Positions 48,511-59,351 of a stretch of DNA of 64,000 bases are shown one piece after another (position 1 is the stretch's first letter; each line of letters begins with the position of its first letter). The position numbers and the translations under genes were made by a program. The DNA comes from Fusobacterium varium (GTDB lineage: Bacteria > Fusobacteriota > Fusobacteriia > Fusobacteriales > Fusobacteriaceae). The notes beneath the pieces were generated by a model. It was not told the origin of the DNA. It did no database searches and saw only the letters and a list, made by a program, of their open reading frames with translations. The stretch is taken from NCBI GenBank assembly GCA_900637705.1, contig LR134390.1:806001-870000 (forward strand). Reading direction: 5' to 3'.

Positions 48511-50063
48511 TTAACCTATCATTTTACTAAATTCAATGAACACTCCAGGTCCGATTGGTAATCCAAACACAAACCAAATTGTAAGAAGTATAGTCCATCC
48601 AATTAAGAAGCAAATTGAGAATGGAAGCATCATTGAAATAAGAGTTCCCATACCAGAATCTTTATCATATTTTTGCATGAAAGCAACTATCATTGCAAAA
48701 TAAGACATTAATGGAGAAATAATATTTGTTGATGAATCTCCGATTCTATAAGCAGCTTGAGTAAATTCTGGCGAGTAATTAAGTTCCATAAGCATTGGAA
48801 CAAACACAGGAGCCATGATTGCCCATTTAGCAGAAGCAGATCCCATAAACAAATTAATGAATGCAGTGAATAGAACAAATCCTAAGATTAATGGTAATCC
48901 TGTAAATCCTATTGATTTTAAAGTATCAGCACCTTTAACAGCAAGGATAGTTCCTAAGTTAGTATATCCAAAATATGCTATAAATTGAGAAGCTGTAAAT
49001 GCAAGGGCCATATATCCACCCATTCCAGCAAGAGCTTTACCCATAAGTTTAGCAACATCTTTATCACTTTTTAAAGTTTTAGCTGTAAATCCATAAGCTA
49101 ATCCAGGAAGTAAGAAGAAGAACATCATTGCTGGAATAAGTCCAGAAGAAGTCCAAGCTTTTAAGCTTCCATCAACTTTTAATATAGCATTACTTGGTAG
49201 AGTAAGAACTAACATAATTGCAATGTAAGCAAGAACAACTAGTCCAGCAGCTCTCAACCCTTTTCTTTCAAGGTCAGTTAATTCTTTCATATCGTGATCG
49301 ACATCACCATGGTAAGGTCCAAGTCTAGGTTCAACTATTTTTCAGTAATAATAGTACCTAAAGCAGTAATGATAAATGTAGAAACAAACATGAAATAATA
49401 GTTAGCAGTTGCAGCAACAAAGTAGTCATGTCTTATAAGTTTTGCAGCCTCTGTAGTAATACCACCAAGTAATGGGTCAGTAGTTCCTAATAAAAGGTTG
49501 GCAGAGAATCCTCCAGATACTCCAGCAAATGCAGCAGCCAATCCAGCCAATGGATGTCTTCCAAACGAAAGGAATATAACTGCTCCTAATGGAACAAGAA
49601 CAACATATCCAGCATCAGAAGCAACATTAGACATAACTCCAGCAAAAACAACTATAGCAGTTATAGCTCTTCTTGGAGTTCCCATAACGACTTTTTTGAT
49701 AGTAGAAGACATAAGTCCACTTCCTTCACAAACCCCAATACCAATAATACCTACAAGAACTGTACCTAATGGAGCAAATCCTGTAAAGTTTTTAACCATA
49801 GAATTAAATATGTATCTAATACCAGCAGCATTAGTTAAAGATTTAACTGTAACAGTTATCTCTTCAAAGTTTCCAGTTTTTTTATTTAAAGCATTGTATG
49901 TAGCTGACACACCCATTTTTTCAGTAATTCCTGAAACTATAATAATAGTTAAACAGAATAGTACAAAAAGTGTAACTGGGTGTGGTAGCTTGTTTCCACC
50001 AACCTCAATGAAATCAAGAAACTTATTAAAAAAGCCTTTTTTTTCTTGTTTAATTTGACTCAT
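48511..50063 (-). CDS. AbgT-family transporter (p-aminobenzoyl-glutamate type), one frameshift
   Basis: Two frames (49335-50102 region and 48511-49290) join into about 517 residues if one base is added to the T5 run at 49338-49342; the junction then reads IITEKIVEPRLGPYHGD. AbgT signatures: GGNKLPHPVTLFVLFCLTII, GFSANLLLGTTDPLLGGITT, GSASAKWAIMAPVFVPMLME and RIGDSSTNIISPLMSYF. Family members import p-aminobenzoyl-glutamate or export sulfonamides. I start at the ATG at 50063 after GGGAGG; longer starts lack a site. In the 395-bp gap upstream I see only A/T-rich sequence and the sppA promoter. Confidence 0.88.
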
Positions 50064-50428
50064 AAAATCCTCCCTAAATTTTTTCTTATTTTTTGATATC
50101 AATATTCACTACTTATATTATTTAACAAATTGTGTATATTTGAAATCAAAAGTCATTATCTGAACAAATTATACATTAGAATGATATTAAAATCAATTTG
50201 AAATTACTTATGGAAATAATATATATTATATATCCTTTAAAGAAATTGAGTATATAAGAACTTGATTAATAGGAAAAAATAGAATAAAACAATAAAAAAA
50301 TAATACAAATAGATAATTAAAAATGAAAAAGAAAATTTTAATTAGCAGGCAAGTATGAGATTAAGAGAAGTTAGTTTTATATTTTTATGAATAAATAAAA
50401 AGTAATTAAAAAGAAAATTTGATAAAGT

Positions 50429-50457
50429 TTGACACTAATGTGCTGAACTGTTATTAT
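50429..50457 (+). promoter_or_regulatory. sppA promoter
   Basis: Perfect TTGACA (50429-50434), 17-bp spacer, TATTAT (50452-50457), 41 bp before the start codon. Confidence 0.7.
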
Positions 50458-50497
50458 AAAGTTGTAAGGAATAAAATATGGAGGTAGGTGTGGCACA

Positions 50498-52252
50498 GTG
50501 AAATTTTTAAAATTTTTAAAAAAATTTATTTTAGGAACAATCTTATTTGTAATAAAAGAAATATTTTCTTTTTTTATAAAAGCTTTTTTATTTCTTGTGG
50601 TAATATTTTCAATAGGAGCTTTTTTTGCAAAAACAGCATTAGAAAAGGATAAAGTGACTATCGAAAAAGGAAGTTATGTAGAAATAGATTTGTCAAAAGA
50701 ATACAAGGAAAAGGGAAAAAATCTACCAGAATTTTTAAAAGGGCAAGATACTAATTTCTTTTCAATGTTAAGAGCTTTCGATTCCATAGAAAGAGATGGT
50801 AATATTAAAGGTGTAGTATTGAAGCTTGATAATCTATCTCTTGATAGTGCTCAAATAGAAGAAGTTGGGAAAAAAATAGATAATTTGAAAAAAAGTAAAA
50901 AAGAAGTATACTCATATATGACAATGGTTAATAATAGAAATTATTCATTAGCCATAAAAAGTAATCAGATTTTCATGCCTCCTACAATGAGTGCTCCTGT
51001 TAATATTACTGGATATTATGGAGAACTTATGTATTATAAGCTTTTAGCAGATAGATTAGGAATAGAATTTAATGTTATTCATGTTGGAGATTATAAAGCT
51101 TATGGAGAAAATTTAATAAAAGAACATATCTCAAAGGAATATAAAGAAAATATTGAGAGAATGTATAATAGAAAATATAATAATTTTGTAAATAACATAG
51201 CAGCTGAGAGGAAAGTAAATCATGATTTTATTAATGAAAAGATTCTTAATGGAGATTTAATGGTTTCAGAGCCAAATCAAATGAAAAAATTAAATCTAGT
51301 AGATGAATTTATGTATTACGATCAACTTAAACAGGTTATTGGAGAAAAGAAGTTTCTTTCTTTTGAAGATTATAATACTTTTTTATCAAAAGATAATATT
51401 TTGGGAATAACAGAAAATAAAAAGAAAGATAAAATAGCAGTAATATATGCTGAAGGAACTATATTTATGGATAGTACTTCAGGAGGAATTTCAGGAAATG
51501 TAACTCCAAATGTAATGATAGAAGAAATAAATAAAGCACTAAAAGATGATACTGTAAAGGGGATAGTTTTAAGAATAAATTCTCCAGGAGGATCAGCATT
51601 AGCAGCCAATATAATAAGTAATAAAATAGTTGAGGCAAATGGAATTAAGCCAATATATGTTTCAATTGGAGGAGTTGGAGCATCAGGAGGGTATTATATA
51701 GCATCAGTGACAGAAAAGATATATGCTGATAAAGATAGTCTTACGGGTTCTATAGGAGTTGTAAGTATTATTCCAAATATAAAGAAAATGTTAGGGAATG
51801 TGTCAATAAATGTAGATGAAGTTAAGAAAGGTGAATATTCAGATATTTATTCTATGGTAAAAGATTTTGATAAGGATAAAAGAGATAAACTTTATGCTTC
51901 AAATTTAAAAGTATACAATGAATTTTTAGATACAGTATCTTTTGGAAGAAAACTTAATAGACAACATGTAGAAAGAATAGCTCAAGGGAAAGTGTGGCTT
52001 GGAGAAGAGGCATTGGAATTAGGATTAGTAGATGAAATAGGAGGATTGGAAAATGCAATAAAAGGTCTTGCTGGAGATCTTAAATTAATAGATTATGAAA
52101 TAGTAGAAATTATGAATGCACCTAATTATAATTCAATTTTAAAGAAATATGTACCAGCAGTAAAAATATTAGAAAAATATGATTCTTTTATTTTAGATAA
52201 AGAGCTCTATTTTAAGCCTATATACTATTTTCCTTATGATGTAAACTTATAG
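50498..52252 (+). CDS. sppA: Signal peptide peptidase SppA, long (67K) form
   Basis: The 584-residue serine protease degrades cleaved signal peptides at the inner membrane. It has one N-terminal helix (about residues 12-42) and two S49 domains. The likely general base is Lys200 in HVGDYKAYGENLIKEHIS, and the nucleophile Ser366 in INSPGGSALAANI; GVGASGGYYIAS follows. Length is like E. coli SppA (618), not the short Bacillus form. The start is GTG, 7 bp after AGGTG; a GGAGG lies further upstream. Confidence 0.93.
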   Translation: MKFLKFLKKFILGTILFVIKEIFSFFIKAFLFLVVIFSIGAFFAKTALEKDKVTIEKGSYVEIDLSKEYKEKGKNLPEFLKGQDTNFFSMLRAFDSIERDGNIKGVVLKLDNLSLDSAQIEEVGKKIDNLKKSKKEVYSYMTMVNNRNYSLAIKSNQIFMPPTMSAPVNITGYYGELMYYKLLADRLGIEFNVIHVGDYKAYGENLIKEHISKEYKENIERMYNRKYNNFVNNIAAERKVNHDFINEKILNGDLMVSEPNQMKKLNLVDEFMYYDQLKQVIGEKKFLSFEDYNTFLSKDNILGITENKKKDKIAVIYAEGTIFMDSTSGGISGNVTPNVMIEEINKALKDDTVKGIVLRINSPGGSALAANIISNKIVEANGIKPIYVSIGGVGASGGYYIASVTEKIYADKDSLTGSIGVVSIIPNIKKMLGNVSINVDEVKKGEYSDIYSMVKDFDKDKRDKLYASNLKVYNEFLDTVSFGRKLNRQHVERIAQGKVWLGEEALELGLVDEIGGLENAIKGLAGDLKLIDYEIVEIMNAPNYNSILKKYVPAVKILEKYDSFILDKELYFKPIYYFPYDVNL

Positions 52253-52253
52253 G

Positions 52254-52283
52254 TTGAAAAAGTAGGTTATATTATGATATAAT
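52254..52283 (+). promoter_or_regulatory. ybaB promoter
   Basis: TTGAAA (52254-52259), 18-bp spacer, perfect TATAAT (52278-52283) with extended -10 TGA, immediately after the sppA stop. Confidence 0.65.
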
Positions 52284-52321
52284 CAATCGTAAAGAACAAA
52301 AACTTTAGGAGGAAAAAGACA

Positions 52322-52678
52322 ATGGTAAGAAAATTAAAGGGTGGAAGAACAGCTAATGGAGCTTCAAACCAAATGGATATATTAAAACAAGCTCAATCAA
52401 TGCAACAACAAATGATGGTTGTTCAAGAGGGGCTTAAAGAAAAAGAATTAACAGCTTCAGTTGGTGGAGGGGCTGTTACAGTAAAAGTTAATGGACAAAA
52501 AGAATTATTAGAAGTTAAATTAAGTGATGAAATAGTTAAAGAAGCTATTGAAGATAAAGAGATGCTTGAAGATCTTATCCTTTCAGCTGTCAAGGAAGCA
52601 ATGAGACAGGCTGATGAATTAGCAGAAGCTGAAATGGGAAAAGTAACAGGTGGAATCAACATTCCAGGATTATTTTAA
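52322..52678 (+). CDS. YbaB/EbfC family nucleoid-associated protein
   Basis: The 118-residue protein has a basic N-terminal tail (MVRKLKGGRTANGASNQMDI) and the YbaB core: QAQSMQQQMMVVQEGLKEKE, TVKVNGQKELLEVKLSDEIV and a C-terminal helix. These proteins form DNA-binding dimers shaped like tweezers. The gene is usually next to dnaX and recR; here it follows sppA with its own promoter, so the usual context is lost. The N-terminal tail is longer than in E. coli YbaB. Confidence 0.9.
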   Translation: MVRKLKGGRTANGASNQMDILKQAQSMQQQMMVVQEGLKEKELTASVGGGAVTVKVNGQKELLEVKLSDEIVKEAIEDKEMLEDLILSAVKEAMRQADELAEAEMGKVTGGINIPGLF

Positions 52679-52688
52679 TATTAAGTAT

Positions 52689-52718
52689 AAAGGGACTGAA
52701 AACTTCAGTCTCTTTTTT
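52689..52718 (+). terminator. Terminator after ybaB
   Basis: AGGGACTGAA and TTCAGTCTCT pair (one G.T) around AAC, followed by TTTTTT. The rest of the gap to 53010 is A/T-rich; near 52968 an ATGGTATGAT sequence could be the extended -10 of the next gene. Confidence 0.85.
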
Positions 52719-53010
52719 AATATATTTGGAAATTCTAAAACTTTAAAATAATAAAAAATATTAAGTAAAAATTGAAATAAGTAAAGTAGAGAAGGTTTGA
52801 AAATAAAAAATGAAATAGAAAATTATAGATATCTTTGCAACAAAAAGTAAAATTACCCTATAGAGAAATAGCAGATAATTAAAGGATAAAAAATTAGAAA
52901 TTAAGATAAAATATGGAATTGAGAAAATCTTATTTGAAATTATCTATTTTATTTGAAGTTATTTTATGGTATGATTTAAATGTATTATTAACTTATTAAG
53001 GAGGAAAAAA

Positions 53011-53937
53011 ATGGGTTCATTTATTGTATTTTTACTATTTGTATTTATTATAGTACTAATAGCTTTTCATGTAAGAATAGTGCCTCAATCAAGAGCTTAT
53101 GTTATAGAAAGACTTGGAGGATATAAGGAAACTTGGAATGTTGGAATAAATTTTCTTGTTCCCTTTATTGACAGAGTAGCTAAAAGAGTTTCTTTGAAAG
53201 AGCAGGTTATTGATTTTAAACCTCAGCCTGTTATAACAAAAGATAATGTAACTATGCAGATAGACTCTGTAATATATTTTCAAATTACAGATCCAAAGTT
53301 ATATACATATGGAGTAGAAAATCCTATGAATGCTATTGAGAATCTTACTGCTACTACTCTTAGAAATATAATAGGAGATATGGAGCTTGATTCTACTTTA
53401 ACTTCAAGAGATACTATCAATACTGAGATGAGAGCTATTCTTGATGAAGCTACAGATCCATGGGGAATGAAAATAAATAGAGTTGAGTTAAAAAATATAA
53501 TTCCACCTAGAGAAATTCAAGACGCAATGGAAAGACAAATGAAAGCTGAAAGAGAAAGAAGAGAGGCTATATTAAGAGCAGAAGGACAAAAAAAATCAGC
53601 TGTTCTTGTAGCAGAAGGAGAAAAAGAATCTCAAATTTTAAGAGCAGAAGCAGAAAAACAGTCAGCTATATTGAGAGCAGAAGGACAAAAAGAAGTTGCT
53701 ATAAAAGAAGCTCAAGGTAAAGCAGAGGCAATATTATCAATACAGAGAGCAGAAGCAGAAGCGATTAAATTATTAAAAGAAGCAGATGCAAGTAAAGAAG
53801 TACTTATGATTAAAGGAATGGAAACATTTAGTAAAGTTGCAGATGGAAAATCTACTAAGATAATTATTCCATCAGAACTTCAAAATTTAACTACATTCAG
53901 TACTTTGTTTGGAGAATTTAAAGAAAAAGATAAGTAA
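53011..53937 (+). CDS. SPFH/band 7 (stomatin/QmcA-like) membrane protein
   Basis: The 308-residue protein has one N-terminal membrane helix (residues 3-23), the SPFH domain (VRIVPQSRAYVIERLGGYKE to about residue 180, with VSLKEQVIDFKPQPVITKDN) and an Ala/Glu-rich coiled coil (ERREAILRAEGQKKSAVLVA and repeats) to about residue 265. Such proteins form membrane microdomain rings. Many partner with an NfeD protein; none is in the window. AAGGAGG precedes the ATG. A long hairpin follows the gene. Confidence 0.92.
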   Translation: MGSFIVFLLFVFIIVLIAFHVRIVPQSRAYVIERLGGYKETWNVGINFLVPFIDRVAKRVSLKEQVIDFKPQPVITKDNVTMQIDSVIYFQITDPKLYTYGVENPMNAIENLTATTLRNIIGDMELDSTLTSRDTINTEMRAILDEATDPWGMKINRVELKNIIPPREIQDAMERQMKAERERREAILRAEGQKKSAVLVAEGEKESQILRAEAEKQSAILRAEGQKEVAIKEAQGKAEAILSIQRAEAEAIKLLKEADASKEVLMIKGMETFSKVADGKSTKIIIPSELQNLTTFSTLFGEFKEKDK

Positions 53938-54005
53938 TATTTTATCAATTTAAGATATATTTGAGAGGTTGTTACATTTTCAAATAGTTTAAACCAAAAA
54001 TATTG

Positions 54006-54067
54006 AAAAAAAGGAGTTGTTCAAATAGATGATTAAAAATCATCAATTTGTAATAACCCCTTTTTTA
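54006..54067. terminator. Long imperfect hairpin after the SPFH gene
   Basis: AAAAAAGG...ATGATT and AATCAT...CCCTTTTTT form a stem of about 28 pairs with several bulges (54006-54066). A-run and T-run flanks allow use in both directions, for the SPFH gene and for the minus-strand Cys-rich gene ending at 54085. Confidence 0.75.
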
Positions 54068-54084
54068 ATTTCTTAAATATTTAA

Positions 54085-54395
54085 TTAAATATTATCAAAT
54101 TCTAAAATAGCTTTTACTGTAATTACTTTTACTTTTGATGTATCAAAAGTACTATCCATACTGCACTTGTTACAGCTGCTACAACTTCCACCACTACAGC
54201 AACTAGAGGAACAACCTGTTTTAGGGCTTCTAGCTTCATATTCCTTATATGATTCCAAGTATCCATTTTTTTCAAGAGAATTATAAGCAGCTGCAAGTTC
54301 CTCTTCATTTATTCCTAAATTTTCATAATGGCATTGTCACTATAGACAGATGAAGTAAGAAGAAATTTTATAAGTTTTATTTCAATATCAGTCAT
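54085..54395 (-). CDS. Small cysteine-rich protein with winged-helix-like N-terminus, one frameshift
   Basis: Restoring one base at the GG of 54330-54331 gives a 103-residue protein on the minus strand. Residues 1-48 (MTDIEIKLIKFLLTSSVYSD, then INEEELAAAYNSLEKNGYLE) look like a small winged helix; residues about 60-76 are a dense cluster CSSSCCSGGSCSSCNKC with seven Cys in 17 residues; the tail has VKVITVKAILEFDN. ATG 54395 follows AAAGGA. A metal or Fe-S role is inferred from the Cys spacing; the layout recalls FeoC-like winged-helix proteins, but it is not a clear FeoC. No family is assigned. Confidence 0.65.
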
Positions 54396-54500
54396 AATTT
54401 TTCCTTTCATAATTTTAAGATATATTTGAATAAATTATATCATATCCTAGACAGAAATTGGAAAAAATATTATAATATTATATCACAAAAGGAGGAGTAG

Positions 54501-55304
54501 ATGAAAAAAGGAGAAATAGCTTTAGAGAGTTTAAGGACTACATACAGAAAAAAGATATGGAGTAAATTTGTAAAAGCCATAAAAGATTTTAATCTTATAG
54601 AAGATGGAGATAGAATAGCAGTAGGAGTATCAGGAGGTAAGGACAGCCTTCTTTTATGTAAATTATTTCAAGAAATGAAAAAAGATAGAAGCAAGAATTT
54701 TGAAGTGGCTTTTATTTCTATGAATCCAGGGTTTGAAGCTTTGGATATGGAAAAATTTAAAACTAATCTTGAAGAATTAGGAATACCATGTGAAGTTTTT
54801 GAGGCTAATGTATGGGAGATTGCATTTAAAGAAGATCCAGAAAGTCCATGTTTTTTATGTGCTAAAATGAGAAGGGGAGTACTTTATAACAGAGTAGAAG
54901 AACTTGGATATAATAAACTTGCTCTTGGACATCATTTTGATGATGTAGTTGAAACTACAATGATAAATATGTTTTATGCAGGAACTGTAAAAACAATGAT
55001 ACCAAAAGTAAAATCTACAAGTGGAAAAATGGAGCTTATAAGACCTATGGTATATATAAAAGAAAAAGATATAATAGCATATACTCAAAGAAATGAGATA
55101 GAAGCTATGGGATGTGGTTGTCCTGTTGAGTCTGGAAAAACAGATTCAAAAAGAAAAGAGATAAAAAATCTTTTAGCTAAACTAGAAGAACAAAATCCAA
55201 ATGTAAAACAGAGTATATTTAATTCTATGAAGAATATAAATCTTGACTATGTCATTGGCTATACAAGAGGAAATAAAAATAATGCTGGTAAAATAGAGGA
55301 ATAA
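54501..55304 (+). CDS. TtcA-like tRNA thiolation enzyme (PP-loop ATPase), first of a tandem pair
   Basis: The 267-residue N-type ATP pyrophosphatase has SGGKDS at residues 44-49 and the TtcA-type Cys motif PCFLC (C117, C120) followed by KMRRGVLYNR; GHHFDDVVETTMINMFYAG is also typical. A GCGCP site (C205, C207) lies where E. coli TtcA has its third cluster Cys. TtcA makes 2-thiocytidine-32 in tRNA with an Fe-S cluster. It is followed after 3 bp by a paralogue, so at least one may have a different tRNA or substrate. GGAGG lies 6 bp before ATG. Confidence 0.88.
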   Translation: MKKGEIALESLRTTYRKKIWSKFVKAIKDFNLIEDGDRIAVGVSGGKDSLLLCKLFQEMKKDRSKNFEVAFISMNPGFEALDMEKFKTNLEELGIPCEVFEANVWEIAFKEDPESPCFLCAKMRRGVLYNRVEELGYNKLALGHHFDDVVETTMINMFYAGTVKTMIPKVKSTSGKMELIRPMVYIKEKDIIAYTQRNEIEAMGCGCPVESGKTDSKRKEIKNLLAKLEEQNPNVKQSIFNSMKNINLDYVIGYTRGNKNNAGKIEE

Positions 55305-55307
55305 TAT

Positions 55308-56069
55308 ATGAAAGAAATAATAAAAAAAGAAAATAATATATTAAATTTTATAGAAAATAAAAACTTTAGTAAAACTATATGGAGTCCTGTAGGACGTGCA
55401 ATGCATAAATATAATATGATAGAAGCAGGAGATAGAATAGCAGTAGGAGTATCAGGGGGAAAGGACAGTTTAACTACTTTAAATGCCTTGGTAAGGATAA
55501 AGAAGATAGCAAATTTAGATTTTGAAATTATTCCTATTCACATACACCCTAATACTGATAAAGCTTCTTTTGAAATAATAGAAAAATATTGTGAAAAGCT
55601 GGAATTGAAACTTCAAGTGGAACATACAAATTTGAGTGACATGCTTTTTGGAGAAAAGGAAGTAAAAAATCCATGTTTTTTATGTGGAAGAATAAGAAGA
55701 GGAATTCTTTACAGGGTAATGAAGGAACAAGGCATAAATAAATTAGCTTTAGGGCACCATAAAGATGATATAATAGAAACTTTTCTTATGAATGTTTTTT
55801 ATCAAGGAAATATGAAAATGATGAAACCTTGTTATCTTTCAGAAGAATATGGAGTTACTGTAATAAGACCACTTGCATTTGTTGAAGAAAAAGATATAAT
55901 AAGGTATGTAAATAAGTTAGAACTTCCTGTGGTAAAATCTGATTGCCCATATGAAATAAGTGAAAATTCAAGAAGATTAAGAATAAAAAACCTTATAAAA
56001 GAAATATCTTTAGAAAATAAAGATGTAAGAAGTGTTATTTTTAATAGTATTAAAGAGTTATTAAATTAG
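55308..56069 (+). CDS. TtcA-like tRNA thiolation enzyme (PP-loop ATPase), second of a tandem pair
   Basis: The 253-residue protein is clearly related to its neighbour: SGGKDS at residues 49-54, PCFLC (C123, C126), IRRGILYRVMKEQGINKLAL and GHHKDDIIETFLMNVFYQG. The third cluster Cys is C213 in KSDCPYEIS, with only one Cys there against two in the first copy. The two copies are divergent, not a recent duplication. It starts 3 bp after the first copy; its ribosome site is within the end of that gene. Confidence 0.88.
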   Translation: MKEIIKKENNILNFIENKNFSKTIWSPVGRAMHKYNMIEAGDRIAVGVSGGKDSLTTLNALVRIKKIANLDFEIIPIHIHPNTDKASFEIIEKYCEKLELKLQVEHTNLSDMLFGEKEVKNPCFLCGRIRRGILYRVMKEQGINKLALGHHKDDIIETFLMNVFYQGNMKMMKPCYLSEEYGVTVIRPLAFVEEKDIIRYVNKLELPVVKSDCPYEISENSRRLRIKNLIKEISLENKDVRSVIFNSIKELLN

Positions 56070-56103
56070 AGCTATACATCAAATGAAATACTAAGGAGGA
56101 ATT

Positions 56104-56496
56104 ATGAGTTTATTATTGAATATTATATGGTTATTTTTAGGAGGATTGGTTTTGGCATTTGAATGGTTTGTAGCTGGTATTATAAGTACAATACTGATAG
56201 TTACAATACCATTTGCAAGAGGATGTTTTGAAATGGCAGCTTCTTGTCTTACTCCCTTTGGAAAAGATGTAGTATTAAAAACTGAATATGGAGAGCCACC
56301 AAGACCAATATCAGCATTTTTCTGGATAATATTTTTAGGAATATGGCTGGCTATATCACATATTATAGCCGGAATATTACAGTGTATTACAATAATAGGA
56401 ATACCAGTAGGGATACAAAACTTTAAATTAGCTAAGATAGCTTTTAATCCTTATAAATATACTTTAGTAGATAGAAGGTTTACAAGCAGAAACTAA
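56104..56496 (+). CDS. YccF-family inner membrane protein (DUF307)
   Basis: The 130-residue protein has four hydrophobic segments and the two DUF307 repeats: NIIWLFLGGLVLAFEWFVAG with TIPFARGCFEMAASCLTPFG, and AFFWIIFLGIWLAISHIIAG with IGIPVGIQNFKLAKIAFNPY. Function is unknown. AAGGAGG precedes the ATG. It follows the TtcA pair after 34 bp and may share their transcript. Confidence 0.92.
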   Translation: MSLLLNIIWLFLGGLVLAFEWFVAGIISTILIVTIPFARGCFEMAASCLTPFGKDVVLKTEYGEPPRPISAFFWIIFLGIWLAISHIIAGILQCITIIGIPVGIQNFKLAKIAFNPYKYTLVDRRFTSRN

Positions 56497-56586
56497 TAAA
56501 GATAATTATCCTTTTTGTATTTTTTAGTAAAATTAGAATATAATTAAATCAGAAGAGAATTTGAATTTTAAAAATAGCATCAAGTA

Positions 56587-56620
56587 AAAAACTATCTGTT
56601 ACAACCAGATAGTTTTTTTA
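56587..56620 (+). terminator. Terminator after the yccF-like gene
   Basis: AAAAACTATCTG (56587-56598) and CAGATAGTTTTT (56606-56617) pair around a 7-base loop, followed by TT. Confidence 0.9.
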
Positions 56621-56623
56621 TAG

Positions 56624-56664
56624 AAAAAAACTGACAAGAAAGAAATCTTCAAGTCAGCTTTTTT
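56624..56664 (-). terminator. Terminator after the minus-strand M20 peptidase
   Basis: CTGAC (56631-56635) and GTCAG (56653-56657), with an inner AAGA/TCTT stem and A7/T6 flanks, lie 30 bp past the minus-strand stop at 56694. Confidence 0.75.
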
Positions 56665-56693
56665 CATATTTTTGTTTTAGGGATACTTAATGG

Positions 56694-57839
56694 TTATTTT
56701 GAAAGTTTTGAAACAGTCTTTATATAAATTTCTGTAGCAGCAAGTACTTGATGAAGATGCCCATATTCATTTGCTCCATGCATATTTCCTCCAGAAGGAC
56801 CAAAAGTAACTGTAGGAATATTTAATGAATTGGCTAGTATATTAGAATCACAAACTGATTTATCAAATTCAATTCTGATTTCATCACCAGTAACTTCTTT
56901 AAATGTTTCTTTTACAGTTTGAACTAATATATGAGCTTCTTCTAGTGCAAATGGTTCCATATATGCTGATTTTCTAGGCTTTAATCTAACATCTACTTTA
57001 CCAGATAATCCAAGTTTATCAGCAGCTTCTAAAATTTGTTTTTCACAAACTTCATAAGTTTCACCAGGAACAGTATATCTATCTATAAACAACTCACATT
57101 TTTCAGGAACTATAAGGGCATTTTTTACTCCACCCTCAATACTTCTGACAACCCAAGTTCCACCACCTAATGTAGGGTGAATTATAGTAGGAAGTTCCTC
57201 AATAGCTATAGCTAATTTACTTCCATAGATAAGAGCATTTTCTCCAACATTTGGATAATGACTTGCATGAGCAGCTTTTCCAGATACAGTAACTTCAATA
57301 CTGTATCTTCCTCTAAATCCAATAGCCATATTATCAAATCTACATTCAGCCATTATAGCCATATCGGCACTTAATCCTTCATTAACTAATTGGTAAGTTC
57401 CTTTAGAAAGATTTTCTTCATCTGATACAAATGCAAGAATAAGTTCTCCAGTAAATTTATCTTTATTTTCTGAATAGTACTTTGTAGTAGCGAGAATAGC
57501 AGCAAGACCACCCTTCATATCCATAGCGCCAAGTCCATAAGTTTTGTCACCATCTTCAATTGGAGTAAATGGATCAGTATTCCATCCATTTGCTACTTTT
57601 ACAGTATCTGTATGACCTATTAACATAAGTCTTGGACCAGGTTTTCCACTATCTAAAACAGCATAGACAGAAGGACTTTGTCTTTCTTCATCTCCTTCAT
57701 AATAACTCATTTTAGGTTCAAGACCAAATTCTTTTAATTTATCAGCAATATATTCAGCAAGTTTAGCTTCTTCTCCTGTAATACTCCTGATTTTTATCAT
57801 ATCATACCAGTACTCTTTGATTAAATTTTCATTTATCAT
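56694..57839 (-). CDS. M20 family metallopeptidase (ArgE/DapE type)
   Basis: The 381-residue enzyme has M20 metal motifs in order: LIGHTDTVKVANGW, GLGAMDMKGGLAAI, VSDEENLSKGT (catalytic Glu pair), ECRFDN, a dimerisation domain with GKAAHASHYPNVGENAL, and a final GPSGGNMHGANEYGH. It resembles ArgE/DapE-type deacylases and dipeptidases rather than PepT. The exact substrate is unknown. It lies 123 bp downstream of the nhaC-like gene on the same strand, with no clear terminator in between, so both are probably one unit. The ribosome site is GGGGG, 8 bp before ATG. Confidence 0.88.
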   Translation of the reverse strand: MINENLIKEYWYDMIKIRSITGEEAKLAEYIADKLKEFGLEPKMSYYEGDEERQSPSVYAVLDSGKPGPRLMLIGHTDTVKVANGWNTDPFTPIEDGDKTYGLGAMDMKGGLAAILATTKYYSENKDKFTGELILAFVSDEENLSKGTYQLVNEGLSADMAIMAECRFDNMAIGFRGRYSIEVTVSGKAAHASHYPNVGENALIYGSKLAIAIEELPTIIHPTLGGGTWVVRSIEGGVKNALIVPEKCELFIDRYTVPGETYEVCEKQILEAADKLGLSGKVDVRLKPRKSAYMEPFALEEAHILVQTVKETFKEVTGDEIRIEFDKSVCDSNILANSLNIPTVTFGPSGGNMHGANEYGHLHQVLAATEIYIKTVSKLSK

Positions 57840-57962
57840 ATATTAACCCCCGATTATATTTTATTTTTTCTTAAGGTTTAGTTTAAAAATTTTTATTTTT
57901 ATTTTTTAAGCACTGATGCTTCTCCTATGTTTGTTATTTATCTCACTTAAAATTGCTGTTTA

Positions 57963-59351
57963 TTATTTATTATTATCAACTTTTTCAATAGTGAATCCTG
58001 TAATTATGTAGATAAAAGAAATTATAATACTTAAATAAGTAACTGGAGCATATAAAATAAAGTCCATTGTTTTTACTCCAAGAGTAGTTGCAACAAATAC
58101 TCCAGTAACACTCCAAGGAACAATAGGTGCAAAACCAGTACCTGTATCTAAAAGTATTCTTGCTAAATTTTTTCTTTTTAATCCATAAGAATCAAATAAT
58201 CCTCTTACCATCTGTCCAAGAACTGAATAAGTTACATAGTAGCTTCCAGTGATTGTGAAAAATAATGAATGTAGAACAAATACTCCAACCATCATTGATT
58301 TACCAGTTTTAGCTACATTAGTTATTTTTTCAAGTAGAATATCAACAACTCCTGCTGTTCTTAGAGGAGCTCCAAATATTGCAGAAGCTATAAGAAGGGC
58401 AACTGTACCAAGCATACTGTTTAGTCCACCTCTAATAAGCATCTTATCAACAATAGCTACACCTGTTTTAGTAGTATAACCACTAGAAAGAGCATTAGCT
58501 ACTTGATTCAGTGTTGTTCCTTGAAATATCATAGCTAAAACACAACCAGCAATAATTCCAATAGTAAACACTGGTAATGTAGGTTTTTTCATTATAATAA
58601 GTACTAAAACTAATACAGGTGGAATTAATAATAATGGATTTAATGTAAATGTTTTTTCCAAAGTTCCCATAATAAGTTCATAACTTTCTCCACCAATAAC
58701 TCCATCTTTATATTGAAGACCAATTACAAAGTACATAACTAATGCAACTATAAATGCAGGTAGAGTTGTTTTAAAAGAATGCTTTATTGCCTCTAAAAGA
58801 TTAACTTCACAAACGGCTGCTGAAAGAACAGTAGAATCAGACAAAGGTGAAAGTTTATCTCCAAAGATTGCTCCACTTACAACAGCTCCAGCTGTTAAAG
58901 GTAAAGAGATACCAAGACCAACAGCAACTCCCATGAAAGCAATACCCACAGTACTAATAGTTCCCCAAGATGTTCCAGCCATAACTGACATTAAAGTACA
59001 TATTATACATACCATAACTAAGAAAAGACTTGGACTAAGAACTTTCATTCCATAGTATATCATAAGAGGAACAGTTCCAGAAATCATCCATGCTCCAACT
59101 AAAACTCCAACAGATAGAACAATAAGAATAGGAACAGCCATAGTAGTAATAGTTTTAACTATGTCACTTTGAATATTAGAATATTCAATTCCAAATATAG
59201 TAGAAATTATAACAGTAATAATTCCTCCGAATAATAAAATAATAGCAGTAGGTGCCTTAACTACTTTTATTCCTAATATGATAACGAGTATCGAAATAAC
59301 AAGAATAAGCATAGCTTGACCAGATGAAACCTTTTTCGCTTGGTTTTCCAT
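57963..59351 (-). CDS. NhaC-family Na+/H+ antiporter
   Basis: The 462-residue membrane protein with about 11 helices has NhaC signatures: MAGTSWGTISTVGIAFMGVA, GAVVSGAIFGDKLSPLSDST, and GTGFAPIVPWSVTGVFVATT. NhaC-type carriers exchange Na+ for H+, and some relatives exchange organic acids or amines, so a substrate-specific antiporter is possible given the adjacent peptidase. The ribosome site is GGGGGG. Two TTGTATAC-type boxes lie 43-82 bp upstream of its start. Confidence 0.92.
   Translation of the reverse strand: MENQAKKVSSGQAMLILVISILVIILGIKVVKAPTAIILLFGGIITVIISTIFGIEYSNIQSDIVKTITTMAVPILIVLSVGVLVGAWMISGTVPLMIYYGMKVLSPSLFLVMVCIICTLMSVMAGTSWGTISTVGIAFMGVAVGLGISLPLTAGAVVSGAIFGDKLSPLSDSTVLSAAVCEVNLLEAIKHSFKTTLPAFIVALVMYFVIGLQYKDGVIGGESYELIMGTLEKTFTLNPLLLIPPVLVLVLIIMKKPTLPVFTIGIIAGCVLAMIFQGTTLNQVANALSSGYTTKTGVAIVDKMLIRGGLNSMLGTVALLIASAIFGAPLRTAGVVDILLEKITNVAKTGKSMMVGVFVLHSLFFTITGSYYVTYSVLGQMVRGLFDSYGLKRKNLARILLDTGTGFAPIVPWSVTGVFVATTLGVKTMDFILYAPVTYLSIIISFIYIITGFTIEKVDNNK

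Follow-up and report, generated by a model that had tools for sequence, protein, structure and literature searches.

In the window, by which we mean the whole 64-kb stretch of Fusobacterium varium DNA analyzed here, itself part of one 3.30 Mb contig, the minus strand from 54085 to 54395 (stop codon included) carries a broken gene for a Cys-rich protein with a predicted winged helix. The gene consists of two overlapping frames, both with homologues. The N-terminal frame (54324 to 54395, minus strand) reads MTDIEIKLIKFLLTSSVYSDNAIMKI and then meets a stop codon; it aligns with positions 1 to 42 of our family profile A1 (E = 2e-7) and would form helix 1 and the start of helix 2. The C-terminal frame, P0001 (54085 to 54324, minus strand; 79 amino acids), goes on with NLGINEEELAAAYNSLEKNGYLES, followed by the Cys cluster, and aligns with positions 25 to 104 of A1 (E = 6e-27), which in the predicted fold correspond to helix 3, the Cys-rich wing, the last strand, and a helix. 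A net one-base frameshift near 54323 splits the gene. The sequence-only reading, which had proposed a minus-strand gene hidden by a one-base break, was right on this point, both frames being present here and relatives having one open frame. The same reading ascribed seven Cys residues to the cluster, but the motif CX3CCX4CX2CX2C (54163 to 54213, minus strand), as read from the sequence and from the translation of the C-terminal frame, contains six of them in 17 residues. Their clustering is real: at the Cys frequency of the window (0.71% over 55 ORFs and 18,452 amino acids) the chance of at least six Cys in a given 17-mer is P = 1.5e-9, and no other ORF of at least 100 amino acids in the window reaches even four Cys in 17 residues.

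Compared with three close relatives, most substitutions, both before and after the frameshift, are at third codon positions; in the comparison with G027, the differences at codon positions 1/2/3 number 1/0/3 before the break and 6/7/16 after it. Given this pattern, either selection acted on the frame until a recent date or the break stems from a sequence error, so that the frameshift appears to be a recent event or a sequence or assembly error, the data admitting both. Eight neighboring genes matched with those of the closest relatives show, in a comparison by length only, no comparable length break. Since the gene is broken in the F. varium genome, the intact Cys-rich protein is probably missing from it, assembly error aside. 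A chance ORF is ruled out by the conservation and the codon-position pattern, and a programmed frameshift is deemed unlikely, since the relatives have a single open frame at the same place.

Two genes on the plus strand, at 54501 to 55304 and 55308 to 56069, encode PP-loop proteins, both with the SGGKDS PP-loop, a CxxC motif (CFLC), GHHxDD, and a third Cys, residues which we take to be the PP-loop and three-Cys site of TtcA. They score 219.2 and 216.8 bits against NF007972 (TtcA), below its equivalog cut-off of 272 bits, and for this reason we call them TtcA-like; they share the SGGKDS, the CxxC, and the third Cys with TtcA and differ from it in falling under the cut-off and in forming two diverged tandem copies. 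Across many genera the second TtcA-like protein is extended by about 70 residues at its N-terminus, and in most of the Fusobacteriaceae genomes searched the two diverged genes stay together. The Cys-rich gene had been described as lying right before two TtcA enzymes; the two TtcA-like genes do adjoin it, but the orientation is divergent, with the genes back to back. The divergent intergenic region holds a promoter-like TAGACA-17-TATAAT for the TtcA-like pair (54448 to 54476, plus strand; 11 of 12), which taken alone is no evidence, as three promoter-like sites were found versus 4.2 expected in shuffled sequence. An intergenic riboswitch was rejected: positions 50000 to 58000 of the window have no Rfam match, and 11 related loci have none that is iron-related. 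The gene at 53011 to 53937, convergent with the broken one, encodes an SPFH/Band 7 protein (HflK-like).

When we searched the Fusobacteriaceae with P0001, 45 of 61 genomes were matched, and 27 members chosen from 45 homologue sequences were used to build profile A1, which matched 50 of the 98 genomes of the phylum. Two of these (G053 and G057) were left out as short weak matches in frames of 372 to 374 amino acids, leaving 48 genomes. The Cys-rich protein is therefore found in 48 of 61 Fusobacteriaceae genomes and in none of the 37 genomes of other Fusobacteriota families searched with A1; a search of the phylum with A4, an alignment of three-Cys members, also found no member in the other families. 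Two scans of a genome collection, both requiring near-exact peptide patterns that distant relatives could escape, gave no relatives outside the Fusobacteriota in the first case and 12 loci, all titled Fusobacteriaceae, in the second. Genomes with the gene include those of Fusobacterium mortiferum, Fusobacterium gastrosuis, and Cetobacterium species, as well as Fusobacterium vincentii SB055, where the record that carries it is labeled a plasmid. This record (NZ_CP084075.1, pSB055A) is 2.1 Mb long, with one annotated feature in the PLSDB table, and is probably the F. vincentii chromosome, housekeeping-type genes such as mnmA being present. Homologues in the 47 other Fusobacteriaceae genomes are open across the region that is broken in the window, and the matched frames outside the window have no internal stop, except for one match (G048:C122) which runs past its own stop codon; the window copy is the only split copy among the matched genomes.

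Nine residues are invariant in A1 (first-row numbering): S19, L34, L41, Y46, C62, V91, T93, K95, and A96. The number of Cys per protein ranges from three to eight, with widely variable spacing, and the most diverged members (G038 to G044 and G052) have only three, in the arrangement CX2CX5C. In Cetobacterium copies, a 15-base tandem repeat makes up the Cys loop and encodes SSGGC-type units, the number of which differs between species; the repeat at L110:6201-6296 has a 15-base period and 5.6 copies. Relatives lacking the frame, or showing no Cys conservation, had been named beforehand as observations that would speak against the gene; what the relatives show is an intact frame and a Cys-rich wing that is kept. 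The spread in Cys number and the SSGGC-type repeats, which fit no fixed binding site, are left unexplained here. A store or carrier would accommodate them more readily than a fixed site would, and the protein might serve the TtcA-like enzymes and other sulfur-transferring PP-loop enzymes as a carrier of Fe-S, iron, or persulfide or as a metallothionein-like store, an explanation we regard as unlikely and to which the gene neighborhoods also speak.

Neighborhoods were surveyed by clustering ORFs around the copies of 40 relatives and the window, and then around eight more. A check for the intact gene beside ttcA-like genes in relatives had been suggested from the sequence, and it turned out positive: the Cys-rich gene is divergent from a tandem TtcA-like pair in 34 of 48 genomes, a tally that relies, for G012, on a fragment at the end of a contig and in which G044 shows a single TtcA-like gene. 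The pair is elsewhere in the remaining 14 genomes with the Cys-rich gene. FeoB lies within 10 kb of the Cys-rich gene in 18 of 48 genomes, usually in the order TtcA-TtcA-FeoA-FeoA-FeoB, and in most genomes of genera g2, g3, and g5 one or two FeoA genes and then FeoB come after the TtcA pair; Pfam confirms the FeoA domains, and FeoB was identified by FeoB_C. The FeoB of F. varium is located 1.4 Mb from the Cys-rich gene. In G048 (L117:4648-9086), a TtcA-like pair lies directly between FeoA-FeoB and a gene with a ThiI domain, without the Cys-rich gene.

The carrier explanation is in line with the finding that every one of the 48 genomes with the Cys-rich gene has a TtcA-like protein, versus 10 of 13 without it (Fisher p = 0.008, kinship uncorrected), a weak association. 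Further linkages of the same kind are found in F. vincentii and three g4 genomes, where the divergent neighbors of the Cys-rich gene are a LysE-like gene and MnmA, and in 7 of 48 genomes where a protein combining ThiI and NFACT-R_2 domains is encoded nearby. However, the MnmA linkage may reflect one inherited event, a winged helix is unnecessary for a carrier, and the 10 genomes that have a TtcA-like protein without the Cys-rich gene, including all eight of genus g14, indicate that the Cys-rich protein is not needed for TtcA-like enzymes. FeoB is present in 42 of 48 genomes with the Cys-rich gene and in 12 of 13 without it (Fisher p = 1, kinship uncorrected), which gives no association. Six of the 48 have no FeoB (two of these six are less than 80% complete), and FeoB therefore cannot be the sole partner.

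Zinc is commonly bound by three or four Cys, and the protein could be a zinc or metal-independent winged-helix protein whose Cys bind zinc or form disulfides, the iron context being incidental. The 14 genomes without the TtcA link and the 30 of 48 without a near FeoB would agree with this, and the binding of any metal by the Cys-rich protein is a prediction; set against it are the recurring Feo, TtcA, ThiI, and MnmA neighbors and the FeoC-like Cys spacing described below, and we deem this explanation very unlikely.

According to our AlphaFold model of the F. mortiferum protein (13 sequences; mean pLDDT 75.2, pTM 0.62), the protein folds into three helices, a short strand, a helix, the Cys loop, a second strand, and a last helix. 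The Cys loop (residues 65 to 88) is below pLDDT 50 and lies between strands 51 to 53 and 96 to 98, as a disordered loop in a wing would; a single-sequence model has the same elements with lower agreement among the five models. Foldseek returned winged-helix regulators at a probability of about 0.99, with no E-value below 0.001; VIA-align ranked MarR-type chains first (3bdd_D, Z 9.8, rmsd 2.6, 69 aligned residues) and also matched MntR (4hv6_A, Z 8.5, rmsd 1.8, 67 aligned residues), and a profile search of solved structures also returned Lrp-type winged helices (best E = 6e-4). The model and these matches taken together make a winged-helix fold well supported. The domain had been recognized as winged-helix-like from the sequence, with the Cys placed behind it; the domain stands, but in the model the Cys sit in the wing loop and not in a tail. 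No FeoC chain was among the best 50 matches of either Foldseek or VIA-align, results with which a FeoC likeness is still compatible. Among Pfam families, HTH_34 (PF13601) is a recurrent match (22.4 bits in a close intact relative, 17.7 bits in the window part), though below its cut-off of 27 bits and covering only residues 4 to 62, before the Cys cluster.

A fold close to the MarR and MntR types brings to mind a repressor, responsive to Fe or Fe-S, of the divergent ttcA-ttcA(-feoA-feoA-feoB) operon and of its own gene, in which the Cys-rich wing would be the sensor, as in one-component winged-helix metal sensors. The divergent position in 34 of 48 genomes is typical of a local repressor, the intergenic region is short and has a promoter-like site, and in Cetobacterium the intergenic stretch is, by eye, strongly conserved. 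In the same genus (g3; L049, L050, L056, and others), the divergent promoters seem by eye to share TTAACAA as -35 boxes on opposite strands. The helix-helix-helix-wing fold is common to MarR/MntR-type regulators and the Cys-rich protein; the latter differs from them in its Cys-rich wing, in an acidic instead of basic recognition helix region, and in the model, which has no extra dimer helices and no dimerization region beyond the winged helix. The 45 residues of the winged helix carry a net negative charge in 40 of the 41 members with a full N-terminus, only one member (G019) having a positive winged helix, and the 17 residues before GY, the recognition helix region, are negative in 42 of 45 members. 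By contrast, 20 control winged helices, hand-picked from profile matches in the same bacterial family, have a mean charge of +2.4, and 16 of them are positive. Reading the upstream regions by eye, we recognized no palindrome common to the genera, and the gene lies apart from the operon it is supposed to repress in 14 of 48 genomes. We consider such a repressor possible but rather unlikely. Since the winged helix is acidic, unlike the controls, a protein-binding, FeoC-like sensor is favored over a DNA-binding repressor: an acidic recognition helix speaks for a protein partner, as in FeoC, and against contact with DNA, even if charge gives no direct information on partners.

Escherichia coli FeoC is a small winged helix, and solved structures of FeoC exist. 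Its Cys pattern (b3410, locus L133) is CX4CX2CX5C, and the CX2CX5C present in all six rows of alignment A4, which comprises six of the eight three-Cys members, corresponds to its last three Cys, the first being missing. Hhalign aligned A4 with E. coli FeoC over 53 columns with the wing Cys paired, at a probability of 41.7%, versus 7.5% for the whole family A1. The Pfam FeoC family (PF09012) gave 17.5 bits (G038) and 14.4 bits in two of the four members tested and no match in the window protein part and typical members; every member tested being below the cut-off of 21 bits, full FeoC membership was rejected, and the PF09012 matches above the cut-off lie in larger frames (249 to 415 amino acids) that are not of the Cys-rich family. 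The FeoC likeness of the three-Cys forms is thus suggestive and falls short of family membership. Further likenesses are the small size, the winged helix, and the location of the Cys in its wing, as predicted by the model, and the feo genes near the Cys-rich gene in 18 of 48 genomes. Unlike FeoC, the Cys-rich protein has one more strand and one more helix following the wing (KVKVITxKAIxEF) and four to eight Cys in most members, the window form being CX3CCX4CX2CX2C; and while E. coli feoC is located after feoB, the Cys-rich gene is divergent and, in the 18 genomes where FeoB is within 10 kb, separated from it by the TtcA pair.

The best reading of the Cys-rich protein, which we put forward tentatively and at somewhat less than an even chance, is that of a FeoC-like Fe or Fe-S sensor which uses its wing Cys and acts on a protein partner. 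The Cys cluster in the wing of the acidic winged helix would bind iron or an Fe-S cluster, and the state of the cluster would change the contact with a protein partner instead of DNA. This partner may be FeoB, which imports ferrous iron, or the TtcA-like tRNA thiolases, which depend on Fe-S, or FeoB and the thiolases together, and iron supply and tRNA thiolation would thereby be held in step. Our analysis shows the family, the modeled fold with its Cys in the wing, the linkage of the genes, and the acidic charge; metal binding, partner, and sensing are what we infer. According to a review (PMC10710835), FeoC guards FeoB against FtsH, and FeoC itself is degraded faster once O2 has damaged its Fe-S cluster; another paper states that TtcA requires an Fe-S cluster (PMC6082896). 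As support for a FeoC-like sensor we count the TtcA pair in 34 of 48 genomes, FeoB within 10 kb in 18 of 48, and the TtcA-like protein in 48 of 48; against it count the low A1-FeoC probability (7.5%), the lack of any match over the FeoC cut-off, the absence of FeoB in 6 of 48 genomes, the divergent gene, the distance of 1.4 Mb to FeoB in F. varium, and the variable number and spacing of the Cys, which are odd for one fixed cluster. The Fe or Fe-S sensor anticipated by the sequence-only reading is therefore retained in part, FeoA-FeoA-FeoB after the TtcA pair in several genera and the FeoC-like spacing of the three-Cys forms speaking for it, while its DNA-binding form is disfavored by the acidic charge. 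A version in which a FeoC-derived, lineage-specific cluster sensor couples FeoAB import to Fe-S-dependent tRNA thiolation by the TtcA-like enzymes, with repeat-grown Cys that tune or multiply the cluster, is deemed quite unlikely.

Among the matches listed for open-licence full-text literature, no paper pointed to the Cys-rich protein or to a TtcA-Feo link, and we rate the protein as a variant among the known small Fe or Fe-S winged-helix proteins. Its small gene, present in most Fusobacteriaceae including F. vincentii, is open to removal and direct testing. If true, a FeoC-like sensor of this kind would show how a FeoC-like wing acquires Cys, and it would give an anaerobe a route linking the import of iron with a tRNA modification that in turn depends on Fe-S clusters.
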